This document shows, piece after piece, positions 1 through 10,515 of a DNA stretch of 61,221 nt. Source of the stretch: an uncultured Ectothiorhodospiraceae bacterium (GTDB lineage: Bacteria > Pseudomonadota > Gammaproteobacteria > XJ16 > Halofilaceae); the NCBI GenBank assembly GCA_913055615.1, contig CAJXKK010000016.1, positions 1 to 61,221 of the forward strand, written 5' to 3'. How positions within the stretch are numbered: the first letter of the stretch is position 1; every line of letters begins with the position of its first letter. The notes beneath the pieces are model-generated. The model did not search any database. It was not told where the DNA came from and worked only from the letters and a program-made list of their open reading frames with translations. The translations under genes were made by a program, and so were the position numbers.

Positions 1-144
1 GGGGGGACGGGGCACCAATGGCTGGCCTGGGATCGTGGGTGCGGGCCACGACCGGGGGAGTCAGGCCAGTGCCAGAGGGGGCACGGCGTTGCCGTCGATT
101 CCCGCGTCGGCGTCGTACGCCCGCGTCATCGGCGGAACCCTTGT
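1..144. other. Window edge, no gene identified
   Basis: GC-rich sequence downstream of the EF-hand gene. I see no convincing coding frame, hairpin or repeat here. It may hold the end of the EF-hand transcript, but no terminator with a T tract is visible. Confidence 0.4.
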
Positions 145-435
145 TCAGTTTTCGGCGTTTCGAACTCCGGATGCGCTCAACTCCTCGTGTCGCAGGAATT
201 CACTCCACACCAGTGTACCATCGGAATCGCGATCGAACTTGGCGAAGTGCGCTGCCAGCCCGGGATTCGACTCCGCTTCGCGGCGGCTGATCCGATCATC
301 GTCGTTGCGATCAAGGCGCTCGAATTCGGCCTGCGCCCGTTTCTCCAGATCCCCGGTCGGCGTCGCCGTGGCGGCGAGCAGCGCGCCGGAGATCAGGATC
401 AGCCCGAGTGTAGTCGTGATCCGGGCCGCTTTCAT
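145..435 (-). CDS. Secreted EF-hand domain protein
   Basis: A 96-residue protein. It opens with a signal peptide: a basic start (MKAAR), a hydrophobic stretch and an AATA-type cleavage region near residue 24. The rest holds two EF-hand loops, one beginning DRNDDDR and ending in Glu, the other DRDSDGT ending in Glu. Both have the Asp/Asn ligands at positions 1, 3 and 5 and a Glu at position 12. It should be a periplasmic or exported Ca2+-binding protein, possibly a calcium buffer or sensor; no enzymatic domain is present. A GGGGAAG ribosome site lies just upstream of the ATG. The upstream region carries a sigma54-type promoter and two GlrR-type sites, so the GlrK/GlrR system encoded 1.2 kb away may control it. 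The family is clear; the role is not. Confidence 0.8.
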   Translation of the reverse strand: MKAARITTTLGLILISGALLAATATPTGDLEKRAQAEFERLDRNDDDRISRREAESNPGLAAHFAKFDRDSDGTLVWSEFLRHEELSASGVRNAEN

Positions 436-513: not shown

Positions 514-530
514 TGCAGACGTCGTGCCAA
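514..530 (-). promoter_or_regulatory. Putative sigma54 promoter of the EF-hand gene
   Basis: Read on the minus strand the site is TTGGCACGACGTCTGCA. It matches the sigma54 consensus TGGCACG-N4-TTGC with one mismatch (CTGC for TTGC). The invariant GG (528-527) and GC (516-515) are exactly 10 nt apart. Transcription would begin near 503, leaving a leader of about 68 nt before the EF-hand start codon. An A/T-rich tract just upstream (about 530-552) could help DNA bending. Confidence 0.65.
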
Positions 531-633
531 TTTATTATGATCTTTTTTTTCAGTGAGTTATGAACGCTCTGGCCGTCCCGGGCCAATACCGCCGCGCGCA
601 ACGGGCAGCCACTGCCACCCGCACCGCCAAAAC

Positions 634-651
634 TGTCGCCCAGCGGCGACA
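634..651. promoter_or_regulatory. GlrR-type binding site 1 (TGTC-N10-GACA)
   Basis: TGTC at 634-637 and GACA at 648-651 are separated by exactly 10 nt. This is the published consensus for E. coli GlrR at sigma54 promoters such as glmY. The centre lies about 139 bp upstream of the predicted start of transcription, a normal distance for a sigma54 enhancer. Confidence 0.65.
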
Positions 652-700
652 CACGTTTCAAGCGAAAGCTGCAAGTCACTGATTCAATGGGCTATCACGC

Positions 701-718
701 TGTCGCCGTTGAGCGACA
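701..718. promoter_or_regulatory. GlrR-type binding site 2 (TGTC-N10-GACA)
   Basis: A second perfect TGTC (701-704) N10 GACA (715-718) half-site pair, centred 67 bp from the first and about 206 bp upstream of the predicted sigma54 start site. Paired upstream sites are typical for this activator class. The rest of 436-787 holds no gene that I can support. Confidence 0.65.
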
Positions 719-787: not shown

Positions 788-1504
788 ATGGCGAGTGAAA
801 CCACGTCGATGCATGCGCCGATGGATTACCCCACCCGTGCCCCGGTCCGGGGCACGGCCGTGACCGTGAGACCACTCGCCCCGGCGGATGACCTGGCCGC
901 ACTCTACGCCGCATCCCATGGCGATCCCGACACGCAGACGCTGTGGACGTGGATGCCGTATGGCCCATTCGCCGACCGCGGCGCAATGGGGGCATGGCTG
1001 GAGACCTGCGCGGCGAGCATGGATCCGGCGTTCCGCGTGGTGGTCGAGCGCGCCAGCGGGCGGCCACTCGGTATGGTGAGCTACCTGAACATCGAACCCT
1101 GGCACCAGCGACTGGAACTCGGCCATATCTGGTACGCCCCGGCCATGCAGCGCACGCGGGCGAACACCGAGGTGATCCGGCTGCTGCTGGGGGAGGCGTT
1201 CGATCGCCTGGGCTGTCGCCGCGTGGAATGGAAGTGCGACGCCCTGAACGCGCGCTCGCGGGCCGCGGCCCTGCGCCTGGGATTCCGGTTTGAGGGCGTA
1301 TTCCGCCAGCACATGATCATCAAGGGCCGCAATCGCGACACCGCCTGGTTCGCGCTGGTGGACCGGGACTGGCCCGCGGCGCGCGAGCATATGGACCGCT
1401 GGCTGGCCGTGGACGGGGACGGCCTCTCACTGACCGCCCTGAACCGGCCTCTGGTCGAGGGGTTTTACGATCCGGCGCCCAGCGACCAGCAGCCAGACCG
1501 CTGA
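788..1504 (+). CDS. GNAT N-acetyltransferase, RimJ/RimL-type
   Basis: A 238-residue protein of the Acetyltransf_3 (RimL-like) branch of GNAT. It would move an acetyl group from acetyl-CoA to a protein N-terminus or small amine. Diagnostic stretches are the early TVRPLAPADD, the core GMVSYLNIEP followed by LELGHIWY, the acetyl-CoA loop around QRTRANTEV, and the late NARSRAAALRLGFRFEG ending in a DTAWFALVDRDW segment. Residues 1-25 and the last 40 lie outside the fold. No strong ribosome site precedes the ATG at 788, so the later Met at residue 8 is also possible. The gene stands alone and diverges from the EF-hand gene; the GlrR-type sites lie between them. Substrate unknown. Confidence 0.8.
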   Translation: MASETTSMHAPMDYPTRAPVRGTAVTVRPLAPADDLAALYAASHGDPDTQTLWTWMPYGPFADRGAMGAWLETCAASMDPAFRVVVERASGRPLGMVSYLNIEPWHQRLELGHIWYAPAMQRTRANTEVIRLLLGEAFDRLGCRRVEWKCDALNARSRAAALRLGFRFEGVFRQHMIIKGRNRDTAWFALVDRDWPAAREHMDRWLAVDGDGLSLTALNRPLVEGFYDPAPSDQQPDR

Positions 1505-1642: not shown

Positions 1643-2980
1643 TCACCCCACGTGCTTGAAATCACCCGGGTCGATGTCATGGCGCGAGAGCAGCTTGTAG
1701 AACTCGGAACGGTTGCGCTGGGCCACGCGGGCGGCCTCGCTGACGTTGCCCTCGGTCAGTTTCAGCAGGCGCACGAGGTAATCGCGCGTGAACCGGGCCC
1801 GGGCATCGGCCACCGAGGGCAACGCGGCGGCCTCATCACCCAGGCTCCGCCGGACCTGTTCGGCGGTGATCACCGTGCCCGGCGCAAGCGCGACGTGCTG
1901 CTCGACGACATTGTCGAGCTGACGCACGTTGCCCGGCCAGCGTGCCGCGACCATGCGCTCCATCGCCTCGGGGGCATACACCTTGACCCGCTCGCGGTCG
2001 CGCTCGGCCAGCGCACGCAGGCGCCGATTGATGAGCAGCGGGATATCCTCGTGGCGTTCGCGCAGCGGCGGCAGCTGCAGCTCGATCACATTCAGGCGAT
2101 AGAACAGGTCTTCGCGGAATTCGCCGGCGGCGATCGCCTCATCAAGCTGGCGGTGCGTGGCGGAGAGGATACGCACATCGATCGGGAAGTCCCGCGTACC
2201 ACCGACCGGGCGCACGCGCCGCTCCTGCAGCACGCGCAGAAGCTTGACCTGCAGCGCGAGCGGCATATCACCGATCTCGTCGAGCAGCAGGGTGCCGCCG
2301 TCGGCCGAACGGATCAGACCTGTGGTCGCATGCTGCGCACCGGTGAAAGCCCCGCGCTCGTGCCCCATCAATTCGGATTCGAGCAGGCCCTCGGGCATGG
2401 CGCCGCAGTTGATGGCGACGAACGGCCCGTCGCGCCGGGGGCTGGCTCGGTGCATGGCGCGCGCAAGCAGTTCCTTGCCGGTCCCGCTTTCGCCCCGGAT
2501 CAGTACGCTGGTGCCGGTGGCCGCCACGCGACGCCCCTGCTCCAGCAGTTCCTCCATGCGCGGGCTGCGGGTGATGATCCCGGCCCGCCAGTCATCCGGC
2601 ACGTCGGCATGGGCTGTGAGGTTCAGGGCCCGCTCGAGCTCGTACATCAACTCATCGCGGTCGACCGGCTTGGTAAGGAAGGCCACCGCTCCATGCTGCG
2701 TCGCGCTGACCGCATCCGGGATCGTGCCGTGCGCGGTCAATAGCAGCACCGGCACGCCCGGCTGCCGGCGCTGCAGTTCGCGCAGCAGGCCGAGACCATC
2801 CATGCCATCCATGCGCAGATCAGTGATGACGGCATCGGGGACCGACTGCTCCACGCGTGCCAGTGCGGCGCTGGCCGAATCCGCGGTCTGGACCGTATAA
2901 CCCGCGGACTGCAGCCGGATATCGAGCAGTCGCAGCAGCGAGGGGTCGTCATCGACGACCAGGATGTGGCCCGCCTTCAT
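1643..2980 (-). CDS. glrR: Sigma54-dependent response regulator GlrR (QseF)
   Basis: A 445-residue NtrC-family activator. The receiver domain (1-120) has the phospho-acceptor Asp54 in VITDLRMDG and a conserved Lys in LTKPVD. The AAA+ domain (about 135-370) has Walker A GESGTGKE at 163-170, the sigma54-contact loop GAFTGA at 210-215 and Walker B LLLDEIGD. A Fis-type helix-turn-helix sits in the last 50 residues (NVSEAARVAQRNRSEF). It should activate sigma54 promoters when phosphorylated by the kinase encoded upstream. The start overlaps the qseG-like stop by 4 bp. GlrR of enterobacteria binds TGTC-N10-GACA, and two such sites stand before the EF-hand gene in this window. The assignment rests on domain order plus the glrK-qseG-glrR arrangement. 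Confidence 0.92.
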   Translation of the reverse strand: MKAGHILVVDDDPSLLRLLDIRLQSAGYTVQTADSASAALARVEQSVPDAVITDLRMDGMDGLGLLRELQRRQPGVPVLLLTAHGTIPDAVSATQHGAVAFLTKPVDRDELMYELERALNLTAHADVPDDWRAGIITRSPRMEELLEQGRRVAATGTSVLIRGESGTGKELLARAMHRASPRRDGPFVAINCGAMPEGLLESELMGHERGAFTGAQHATTGLIRSADGGTLLLDEIGDMPLALQVKLLRVLQERRVRPVGGTRDFPIDVRILSATHRQLDEAIAAGEFREDLFYRLNVIELQLPPLRERHEDIPLLINRRLRALAERDRERVKVYAPEAMERMVAARWPGNVRQLDNVVEQHVALAPGTVITAEQVRRSLGDEAAALPSVADARARFTRDYLVRLLKLTEGNVSEAARVAQRNRSEFYKLLSRHDIDPGDFKHVG

Positions 2981-3486
2981 TCGGTAACGCCTCCGCTGCC
3001 ATCGACATCGGCGCCATTACCCCGCATCTGACGCTCCAGCGCCGTCAATTCCTGGATTTGCTGCTGCAGCCGGCGATTGCGTTCGGCCAGACCACTCGTT
3101 TTGCGCCGCAGTTCCAGCTGCCTGCGCAGATGCCGCAGTTCCAGGCGCACCAGTGCGCGCGTCGGTGCATCGAGCTCGGTCGAGCGGGTCGCCAGCGATT
3201 CCAGCGCATCGCGGGCGGCAACCGGATCGTGCCCCTCGTGCGCGGGCGTCGCCAGCCACAGGGCGTGGCGCAGCAGTGCGCTGGCCTCTTCAATCGGGGC
3301 CGGTCGCCGTGCCGGCATGGTGGCCAGTTCGTCAGCCGATGCGACCGCCAGTCGATCCGAGAAGAAGAGCATTTCCGCGACGGGCGGCTCCGGGCGCGAG
3401 CCGTCGCGGGTGGATTGCTCCGCGCTAAAGCGTACGCAACCCGTGAGCGCGACCACCGCGATGACGAGCATGGGCCCTGCCTTCAT
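2977..3486 (-). CDS. qseG: QseG-like lipoprotein of the Glr system
   Basis: A 169-residue protein starting with a lipoprotein signal: a hydrophobic stretch then lipobox LTGC, with the acylated Cys at residue 17. The middle is Ala/Leu/Arg-rich helix, and residues about 115-160 (RHLRRQLELRRK, NRRLQQQIQEL) predict a coiled coil. In E. coli the outer-membrane lipoprotein QseG lies between the kinase and regulator genes and modulates the kinase. Here it occupies the same position and overlaps glrK and glrR by 4 bp each. Sequence similarity to enterobacterial QseG looks weak by eye, so the name rests mainly on position, lipobox and coiled coil. Confidence 0.65.
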   Translation of the reverse strand: MKAGPMLVIAVVALTGCVRFSAEQSTRDGSRPEPPVAEMLFFSDRLAVASADELATMPARRPAPIEEASALLRHALWLATPAHEGHDPVAARDALESLATRSTELDAPTRALVRLELRHLRRQLELRRKTSGLAERNRRLQQQIQELTALERQMRGNGADVDGSGGVTE

Positions 3487-4955
3487 TCGCTTCCCCCGAT
3501 ACGTGGCCGTTGCTGGGCGTACAGCGTCATACGGATATGGGCTCCCGGATACTCGCCGTCAACAATCTCGACGCGCCCATCATGGGCCCGCGCACAGTCA
3601 CGCACCACGGACAGGCCGACACCGGTACCACGGACATGGCCCTGCGGTGAGCCGTCGCCCTGGAAAAACGGCTCGAACACGTGCGGGCGCTCACCGGGCG
3701 GGATCCCCGGGCCCTCGTCGGCCACCTCGATGATCAAGCGCTGGCCGCGGCGCCTGGCGCGCACGTGGAGCGCCCCACCCTCGGGCGAGAAACGGATCGC
3801 GTTGCCGATCAGATTCGATACCGCGCTCTGCAGCAGTGACCGGAAGCCCTCGAAACCGCGTGCATCCGCCTGCCGCTCGACCTCGAGACGCGCGCGGCTG
3901 ATCGCGAGCCGATGACGCGCGATGGCCTCGTCGATGAGGGCGGCGGGATCGATGTGCTCCGGTTTCCGGGACAGGTCGCGGGCACTCAGAACCAGCAGAT
4001 TCTCGATCAGCTCCTGCAATTCGACGCTGGAACCGCGCAGGATATCCACGATCTCCCGATGGGCGGGGGAGTCCGCGCCGACCGCCCCATCAGCGATCAA
4101 CTCCGTGCCCTCGCGGATCGCGGACAGGGGCGTCTTCAGTTCGTGCGACATATGCCGCAGGAAACGGTTCTTCTCCGCCTCCGAGCGATCCAGGCGCACC
4201 CGCAGGCGCTCCAGCTCCTCGCCCAGATCGAGGATCTCCGGTGGCCCGCCTACGGCGATGGGCGCGGAAGGCTCGACCGCACCGAGACTGCGGATCGCAC
4301 GGCCCAGCCGGCCAATCGGGCGCAGGATCAACCAGGCGAACAGGACCGTCAGGGCGATCGTGATGGGCACGAGGGTCACCGTCAGCCAGAACAGGAATTC
4401 GCGCACGCGGGACGACTCGACCTCGAGTGAATCGAGTTCGGTGCGGATGGCCGAATCCGCCGCGCCGGCGATCTCGGTGGCGAGTTCGCGCATGCGGGCG
4501 AAACGCTCCAGCGCCGCGGTCAGGGATTCGCTCGACGGGTCCGCTGCCTCGACGGCCCCGGTTACCGACTCCGCGATGGCCCGAAGGTCCTGACGCGCGT
4601 CCGCGGCCCCGGGATCGAGGCTCACGGAGACCAGTGAGTCCAGCGTCCCGATCAACTGCGTGTGGCGCTCCTGATAGAGGCCGATCAGCTCCCCGCGCCC
4701 CAGGATCCGGTACTGGCGGGCGTTGCGCTCCATCTGCAGCAGCTGGGTCTCCAGCGCCTGCCCCTGGCGCACGAGGATGACGCTATCGCGCACGAGCTGT
4801 TCGCTTCGCCGCGTGAGGCGATCCAGATAGACCGAGCCGCCGATCACCGCGACCAGCAGCGGCAGGGCGACCAGCGCGAAGCCGGCCACCACCAGCGTGA
4901 CCATGGAATAGAGCCGGCGCCGCCCCCGCACCGCACCCCGCCGCCGCTCCATCAA
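3483..4955 (-). CDS. glrK: Sensor histidine kinase GlrK (QseE)
   Basis: A 490-residue membrane kinase. Transmembrane segments are at about 17-42 and 188-212, enclosing a largely helical periplasmic domain of about 145 residues. A HAMP-like linker follows (213-265). The phospho-acceptor His271 sits in RHMSHELKTP. The ATPase domain has the N box SNLIGNAIRFSPEGG, the G1 box VADEGPGIP, an F box FEPFFQ and the G2 box GTGVGLSVV. It should phosphorylate the regulator encoded two genes downstream. The start overlaps the ruvA stop by 4 bp, so translation is probably coupled to recombination genes, which is unusual. The signal is unknown; enterobacterial GlrK responds to envelope state. Confidence 0.9.
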   Translation of the reverse strand: MMERRRGAVRGRRRLYSMVTLVVAGFALVALPLLVAVIGGSVYLDRLTRRSEQLVRDSVILVRQGQALETQLLQMERNARQYRILGRGELIGLYQERHTQLIGTLDSLVSVSLDPGAADARQDLRAIAESVTGAVEAADPSSESLTAALERFARMRELATEIAGAADSAIRTELDSLEVESSRVREFLFWLTVTLVPITIALTVLFAWLILRPIGRLGRAIRSLGAVEPSAPIAVGGPPEILDLGEELERLRVRLDRSEAEKNRFLRHMSHELKTPLSAIREGTELIADGAVGADSPAHREIVDILRGSSVELQELIENLLVLSARDLSRKPEHIDPAALIDEAIARHRLAISRARLEVERQADARGFEGFRSLLQSAVSNLIGNAIRFSPEGGALHVRARRRGQRLIIEVADEGPGIPPGERPHVFEPFFQGDGSPQGHVRGTGVGLSVVRDCARAHDGRVEIVDGEYPGAHIRMTLYAQQRPRIGGSE

Positions 4956-8721: not shown

Positions 8722-10515
8722 TCAGCCCTGTCCCCCAGCCCGTTCAGCGGCCTTGCCGCGCAGGCGGATGCCGAGTTCGCGCAGCTGCGCCTCGTTGACC
8801 GTCGACGGTGCCGAGGTCAGCGGGCAGCTCGCCGTCTGCGTCTTCGGGAACGCCATGACATCGCGGATTGACGCCGCTCCGGTCATCAGCATGACCAGGC
8901 GATCCAGGCCGAAGGCGATGCCGCCATGCGGCGGCGCGCCGTACTCGAGCGCATCCAGCAGGAAGCCGAACTGTTCGCGTGCGCTGGCGGGATCGATCCC
9001 CAGCACCTCCAGCGCCGCTTCCTGCAGCCCGCGATCATGGATACGGATCGAACCACCGCCGAGCTCGGTGCCATTGAGCACCATGTCATAAGCCCGCGAC
9101 AGGGCCTGCTTCGGATGCGCGCGCAGCTCGTCCGGGTTGTTCACGGCGGGTGCGGTGAACGGGTGATGCAGCGGCGTCCAGGCGTTGGCGTTGTCGTCCC
9201 ACTCGAACATCGGGAAATCGACGACCCAGAGCGGACACCACGCACGCTGGACGAAGCCACGGTCGTGACCGATCTTCACGCGCAGTGCACCCAGCGCATC
9301 GTTGACGACGCGCGCCTTGTCGGCGCCGAAGAAAATCAGGTCGCCACCGGTGGCCGCGGTATGCTCCAGCAGCGTCTCGATCACGTCGTCCGGCAGGAAC
9401 TTGAGGATCGGCGACTGCAGGCCCTCCCTGCCCTGCCCGCGCTCGTTGACCTTGATGTACGCGAGGCCCTTCGCCCCGTAGCGGCCGACGAACTCCGTGT
9501 ACTCATCGATCTCCTTGCGGGTCATGGAGCCACCGCCAGGCACACACAGGGCGGTCACGCGGCCATCCGGATCGTTCGCCGGGCCGGAGAAGACCTTGAA
9601 GTCCACGTCCGTCATCAGGCCAGCGACCTCGATCAGTTCGAGCGGGATGCGCAGGTCCGGCTTGTCGGACCCGAAGCGGTGCATCGCCTCCGTATAGGTC
9701 ATGCGCGGGAACGGATCGGGCAACGGCTCCTCGAGCACGTGCGTGAACAGGTCGCGCATCATGCGCTCGGCCATGTTCATGACGTCGTCTTCCTCGACGA
9801 ACGCCATCTCCATGTCGAGCTGCGTGAATTCGGGCTGGCGGTCGGCGCGCAGGTCCTCGTCGCGGAAGCAGCGCGTGATCTGGTAGTAGCGGTCCATGCC
9901 GCTGACCATCAGCAGCTGCTTGAACAACTGCGGCGACTGCGGCAGCGCGAAGAACGAACCGGCGTGGGTCCGGCTCGGCACAAGGTAGTCGCGCGCCCCT
10001 TCGGGCGTCGCCCGGGTGAGCATCGGCGTCTCGATGTCGATGAAGCCGTCGTCCTCTACGAAACGCCGCACGCGCGAGGTGATCGCCGCGCGCAGGCGCA
10101 GCCGCTGCTGCATCTCCGGGCGGCGCAGATCGACATAGCGGTACTTCAGCCGGTGTTCCTCGCCGACGTCCCATTCATCCAGTTGGAACGGGGGTGTCTT
10201 CGCCCGATTGACGACCTCGAGTTCGGTCCCGAGCACCTCGATCGCACCGGTGGTCAGATCCGGATTCTCGGTCCCGGCGGGCCGTGCGCGCACCTGGCCC
10301 TTCAAGTGAATGACGTACTCGCTGCGGATCTGCTCGGCGATACGGAACATATCCGCCCGATCGGGATCGAACACGACCTGGATCAAGCCGGTGTGATCGC
10401 GCAGATCGACGAAGATGACGCCGCCATGGTCGCGGCGGCGGTGAATCCAGCCGGCGAGTTCGACGGTGGAATCGATGGCGGCGCTGTCGAGCGTGCCGCA
10501 GAGATGGCTGCGCAT
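8722..10515 (-). CDS. aspS: Aspartyl-tRNA synthetase, probably non-discriminating
   Basis: 597 residues, bacterial-type class II AspRS. It charges tRNA-Asp. The N-terminal OB fold binds the anticodon ([15 protein letters not shown]), motif 2 reads [18 protein letters not shown], the GAD insert lies between about 290 and 420, and motif 3 is [14 protein letters not shown]. His30 and Gly81 align with H31 and G82 of the Pseudomonas aeruginosa enzyme, the residues tied to non-discriminating charging of both tRNA-Asp and tRNA-Asn. The E. coli discriminating enzyme has Leu and Lys there. That predicts a GatCAB-dependent route to Asn-tRNA. Its neighbourhood with yebC and nudB is typical. Confidence 0.95.

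Follow-up and report, generated by a model that had tools for sequence, protein, structure and literature searches.

An EF-hand gene as a predicted target of GlrR and sigma54 in an uncultured Ectothiorhodospiraceae bacterium and other Gammaproteobacteria

In E. coli and its enteric relatives, the response regulator GlrR (QseF) has been studied mainly in connection with glmY and rpoE. In E. coli, GlrK and the lipoprotein QseG control the phosphorylation of GlrR, which activates sigma54 RNA polymerase together with IHF (PMC6075780, PMC8745638), and the P2 promoter of rpoE places an envelope-stress gene under the control of QseF/GlrR and sigma54 (PMC6075780). EF-hand proteins that take part in calcium or stress responses have also been described in bacteria. 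Examples are EfhP from Pseudomonas aeruginosa and the periplasmic CaBP from Caulobacter (PMC9132961, PMC13171946). A broad survey of sigma54 (PMC3162934) is silent on EF-hand proteins and calcium. Our search of the literature for GlrR or QseF together with EF-hand, BON domain or OsmY, which covered few subscription journals, found no paper linking them.

Here we describe an EF-hand gene of an uncultured Ectothiorhodospiraceae bacterium, located in a stretch of 61,221 nucleotides that was analyzed as a whole (the window). The minus-strand promoter upstream of this gene is very probably a GlrR-dependent sigma54 promoter of the glmY type, and the comparison of genome sequences points to a link between GlrR and EF-hand genes that is conserved within the GlrR regulon.

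The promoter region and the glrK-qseG-glrR genes

The relevant features of the window are the following.

1-147, minus strand: 3' tract after the EF-hand stop codon, 147/147 bases identical to the congener G002
145-435, minus strand: EF-hand gene, 96 amino acids, EF loops DRNDDDRISRRE and DRDSDGTLVWSE (open reading frame, Pfam, AlphaFold, Foldseek)
503, minus strand: predicted transcription start, computed as 12 nt past the -12 GC
514-530, minus strand: predicted sigma54 -24/-12 promoter TTGGCACGACGTCTGCA, 12 of 13 consensus positions, GG-N10-GC intact
548-560, plus strand: second IHF-like site TTTCAGTGAGTTA, one mismatch, at about -57
634-651, no strand assigned: proximal putative GlrR site TGTCGCCCAGCGGCGACA, TGTC-N10-GACA, 0 mismatches, centre at -139.5
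672-684, minus strand: IHF consensus AATCAGTGACTTG between the two GlrR sites, perfect sequence match
701-718, no strand assigned: distal putative GlrR site TGTCGCCGTTGAGCGACA, TGTC-N10-GACA, 0 mismatches, centre at -206.5
788-1504, plus strand: divergent gene for a GNAT acetyltransferase (Pfam)
1643-2980, minus strand: glrR, sigma54 response regulator (GlrR as top NCBIfam model, GlrR-type HTH)
2977-3486, minus strand: gene for a qseG-like lipoprotein with the lipobox LTGC (open reading frame, synteny)
3483-4955, minus strand: glrK, sensor histidine kinase (HisKA, HATPase_c and HAMP domains; synteny)

On the minus strand, positions 725 to 430 contain TGTCGCTCAACGGCGACA (718-701), AATCAGTGACTTG (684-672), TGTCGCCGCTGGGCGACA (651-634), an A/T-rich tract, TTGGCACGACGTCTGCA (530-514) and the ATG at 435, so that the order of elements, including the IHF-like site, is GlrR, IHF, GlrR, IHF-like, sigma54. 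The initial annotation had proposed a minus-strand sigma54 promoter with the invariant GG-N10-GC and two perfect TGTC-N10-GACA sites about 139 and 206 bp upstream of the start, and all of these elements were recovered at the expected places; the perfect IHF consensus and the IHF-like site had been overlooked. Both sites lie within the interval 100-250 bp upstream, and their sequence is the same as the published QseF/GlrR consensus (PMC8745638). The proximal site is located 121 bases from the promoter element, the commonest distance in our survey being about 90. At the sequence level, all features by which we define a glmY-type promoter were found, i.e., a sigma54 consensus, paired sites, an IHF consensus and genes for GlrR and RpoN in the genome. 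The paired sites lie between the EF-hand gene and the divergent GNAT gene, and no sigma54 promoter scoring at least 11 was found on the plus strand near the GNAT gene.

The two sites span 85 bp and form the only pair with such spacing in the genome. A third copy of TGTC-N10-GACA in the window (9084-9101) is located within aspS and was rejected as a chance-level copy in coding DNA. Single copies were also rejected as evidence for lack of power, as their genome-wide number (26) did not differ significantly from that of a control pattern (23).

The presence of GlrK, a QseG-like lipoprotein and GlrR in the same window, also noted in the initial annotation, is borne out by domains, lipobox, HTH and gene order. 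GlrR was by far the top NCBIfam family of the response regulator, its score of 628 bits being below the curated cut-off of 763 for this model of the enteric protein; the gene order glrK-qseG-glrR and the GlrR-type HTH argue for orthology. The QseG-like protein had no match in Pfam or NCBIfam, and its lipobox and the position of its gene between glrK and glrR are in accord with QseG.

The same arrangement was found in the congener G002, whose GlrR and EF-hand proteins are 96% and 86% identical to those of the window genome. The orthologous EF-hand gene is preceded by the same pair and promoter at equal distances (104 and 171 bases from the promoter). Between the elements, the spacer DNA shows only 38-58% identity; the core arms of the sites are kept, 16 of the 17 promoter bases are identical, and an IHF site with one mismatch is present at the equivalent place. 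In a further congener, G001, both a GlrR orthologue and the EF-hand gene are missing, the HTH giving only weak matches. G002 also contains a second EF-hand gene directly behind glrR (L038, 5756-6061, minus strand), which has a GlrR site and a sigma54 element of its own (GCGGCACGGCGCTTGCA) and is missing in the window genome.

The EF-hand protein and the adjoining 3' tract

The product of the EF-hand gene matched Pfam EF-hand_6 with 26.3 bits (cut-off 25), and AlphaFold predicted an EF-hand pair with a core pLDDT of about 95. The best Foldseek matches were EF-hand or calmodulin-like chains with a probability near 1 and E-values no better than 0.01, which is to be expected of a fold of this size. 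Pfam, model and fold search thus agree on the helix-loop-helix with a 12-residue D-x-D/N-x-D loop. Loop 1 carries Asp at position 6, where Gly is usual, and therefore its affinity is uncertain. By eye, the N-terminus resembles a signal peptide ending in ATA, and the protein is presumably exported to the periplasm, where it may bind calcium or a similar cation.

Alternatively, the protein could be periplasmic and have a structural or lanthanide-binding function without a calcium role, which we consider unlikely. The non-canonical loop and a weak sequence similarity to lanmodulin, likewise a small bacterial EF-hand protein, fit such a function, but the NCBIfam LanM model scored only 24.6 bits with a cut-off of 135, and membership in this family was rejected. 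Moreover, Pro at loop position 2 is typical of lanmodulin, whereas the window protein has two loops only, and neither carries Pro at this position.

The DNA on the 3' side of the gene is well conserved. Including the adjoining contig C63, a tract of 162 bases ending in an intrinsic terminator is identical in G002 at all 162 positions (window 1-147, minus strand, and G000:C63; L038 4059-4220, minus strand); between the two species, the flanking EF-hand coding sequence is 83% and the downstream contig about 90% identical. The next gene past the terminator reads as ruvB. A 77-bp match on C63 represents the exact overlap of the contig ends, and a dispersed repeat was rejected as the cause of the invariance since the tract occurs at a single locus. 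The tract contains an open reading frame for 22 amino acids (MTRAYDADAGIDGNAVPPLALA) and could be a small RNA, this short open reading frame or recently exchanged DNA.

It is therefore conceivable, but in our view quite unlikely, that the key product of the promoter is a GlmY-like small RNA formed by the 162-nt tract rather than the EF-hand protein. Besides the perfect identity amid coding DNA of 83-90% identity, this idea is favored by the predicted RNA fold of the tract, which is better than that of shuffled sequences (z -2.4), and by the precedent of E. coli, where GlrR is known to act on a small RNA. However, neither the window nor the tract matched GlmY or GlmZ in Rfam, an identity that we rejected, the tract gave no confident Rfam match, and no relative of the tract was found in other glrR loci. 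A predicted pairing with the glmS leader was dismissed as no better than chance, as 25% of random pieces did equally well. By contrast, the EF-hand protein is itself conserved and is found behind promoters of this type in many families.

Predicted GlrR promoters with paired sites and EF-hand genes in other genomes

The pair pattern was found in 33 of the 369 genomes of the class, and a reversed control matched one. A full-length GlrR match was present in 24 of these 33 genomes; among the other nine, G066 and G207 carry a GlrR gene broken by contig ends, and the others include repeats. When a sigma54 element was required in addition to the pair, 27 promoters were detected in 93 glrR loci and 27 in another collection of 80 named loci, compared to none with the reversed motif in either case. 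The two collections overlap in part, and counting identical promoters once left 54 unique promoters. Their pooled site consensus is TGTCGCC-N4-GGCGACA, and the sites are spaced 65-67 bp apart in 39 of the 54, with 55-95 bp allowed. An IHF-like sequence was located between the paired sites in 27 of the 54 promoters (3.5 expected).

EF-hand open reading frames were found in 26 of the 93 glrR loci and in 20 of the 80 named loci, mostly either directly upstream of glrK or, in the same orientation as glrR, directly downstream of it; about 28 EF-hand matches were adjacent to glrR, compared to 0.47 expected. A fixed rule was then applied to the genes (sigma54 score of at least 10; GlrR site 60-215 bases upstream, no more than one mismatch allowed). 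In GlrR-positive genomes, 20 of the 32 EF-hand genes linked to glrR qualified, as did 14 of the 40 that were unlinked, about one third of the linked genes having no recognizable promoter under this rule. None of the 35 EF-hand genes in genomes scored as GlrR-negative did so, some of these genomes being assigned by the whole-protein E-value threshold alone and part of the set being confirmed by the HTH model. Fisher's test against the GlrR-negative set gave p values of 4e-9 (linked) and 5e-5 (unlinked), which are descriptive; since the genomes are related, the counts lack independence, and both the Fisher values and the Poisson estimate for the glrR-adjacent matches are too small to be read as probabilities.

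Several loci illustrate the variety of arrangements. In G066 (L235, 1-3306), EF-hand gene, glrK, qseG and glrR follow a paired GlrR/sigma54 promoter, with the EF-hand gene in the position of glmY. In Methylovorus/Methylophilaceae and beta-proteobacterial loci (L267, L269, L276, L286, L291, L292, L252), we read the gene behind the same promoter type as an EF-hand fused to a BON-like domain. Cultivated bacteria that share the layout of the window include Salinisphaera sp. Q1T1-3 (L294) and the Methylovorus species of L267 and L269. Conservation in relatives had been named as a point at which the proposal of an EF-hand gene as a GlrR target might fail; pair and promoter were present in front of both the orthologue in G002 and EF-hand genes of many families. 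They were absent in front of the EF-hand genes of genomes scored as GlrR-negative. The link is therefore broader than initially proposed, and the predicted regulation of the EF-hand gene by GlrR and RpoN is well supported by the comparison of genomes.

Other genes behind a pair and a sigma54 element (L076, L077, L039, L159, L171, L310) encode MdoG/OpgG, BON-domain and DUF1328 proteins, assignments that were tested with Pfam for G027 and G028, and by eye also glycine-zipper, CsbD-like and bactofilin-like proteins. This suggests an envelope regulon of GlrR. Three paired-site promoters surround the single glrR locus of L171 (G311), which includes a series of EF-hand genes together with a BON-like one. 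In GlrR-positive genomes, pair and sigma54 element were also seen in front of genes that by eye encode PEP-CTERM-like acyltransferases (L142/L100, L105, L114, L117), and these promoters may be under the control of GlrR or PrsR.

The acyltransferase genes, together with the presence in the window genome of other activators 45-47% identical to GlrR, raise the question whether a different NtrC-family activator, such as PrsR of the PEP-CTERM system, uses the sites and GlrR is a mere neighbor. We considered this highly improbable: the GlrR-type HTH occurs only once in the genome, the site pairs are concentrated beside glrR, the site is that reported for QseF/GlrR, and the GlrR-negative genomes possess other activators, yet their EF-hand genes lack such sites (0/35). 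Another reading, in which the inverted repeats merely form hairpins or represent some other feature of the DNA and the sigma54-like element arose by chance, has next to no probability. Single sites do occur at background frequency, and the distal one has the score of a weak terminator-like hairpin, but the spacing is conserved, the reversed-motif control gave none and the promoters depend on the presence of GlrR.

Proposed mechanism and comparison with known systems

With GlrR as the preferred regulator, the following mechanism can be proposed. By analogy to E. coli (PMC6075780), GlrK together with the lipoprotein QseG would sense envelope or growth-phase signals, leading to phosphorylated GlrR. 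GlrR dimers would occupy the sites centred near -206 and -139, IHF would introduce bends between these sites and below them, and sigma54 polymerase at 530-514 would be remodeled by the AAA+ domains for initiation near 503. The resulting small protein with an EF-hand pair would enter the periplasm by export and there bind calcium or a similar cation; most likely it would stabilize or buffer cation-dependent components of the envelope, and it may have a feedback role. EF-hand genes would form a conserved part of the regulon in Gammaproteobacteria (in the GTDB sense, including beta-proteobacteria), together with BON, MdoG/OpgG and further genes of the envelope.

A more far-reaching scenario, which we regard as quite improbable, places a cation-linked envelope pathway at the root of the GlrK-QseG-GlrR system. 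The widespread non-enteric output would then be a periplasmic EF-hand protein feeding back on the sensor side, the transcript would in this genus additionally yield the invariant 162-nt RNA, so that a single GlrR promoter would supply a protein arm and an RNA arm, and GlmY would be an enteric replacement.

An EF-hand output kept in many other families would give GlrR/QseF a role outside the enteric bacteria and suggests that homeostasis of calcium or divalent cations in the envelope is part of the GlrR system. Non-enteric bacteria may thus offer an opportunity to find the natural signal of GlrK. The strict promoter grammar GlrR-IHF-GlrR-sigma54 with a spacing of 65-67 bp should make GlrR regulons readable from sequence.

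Like EfhP and CaBP, the window protein is a bacterial protein of the EF-hand type; the literature searched gave no connection between those two proteins and GlrR. As for the known GlrR targets, the product of rpoE P2 in E. coli is a sigma factor, whereas the window promoter precedes a gene for a protein of the calcium-binding type. The closest counterpart is glmY. In the promoter of E. coli K-12 glmY, the same script placed GlrR sites at -221.5, -188.5 and -125.5; the IHF sites, both perfect, are at -177 and -58, and the sigma54 element reads TTGGCACAGTTACTGCA. E. coli glmY differs in having a third, distal GlrR site, in being located upstream of glrK, whereas the EF-hand gene lies downstream of glrR, and in yielding the small RNA GlmY instead of a protein-coding transcript. 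Common to both promoters are an IHF consensus amid the GlrR sites, which are 63 bp apart in E. coli (-188.5 and -125.5) and 67 bp in the window (-206.5 and -139.5), an IHF or IHF-like site near -58, the sigma54 element and the association with a glrK-qseG-glrR cluster.
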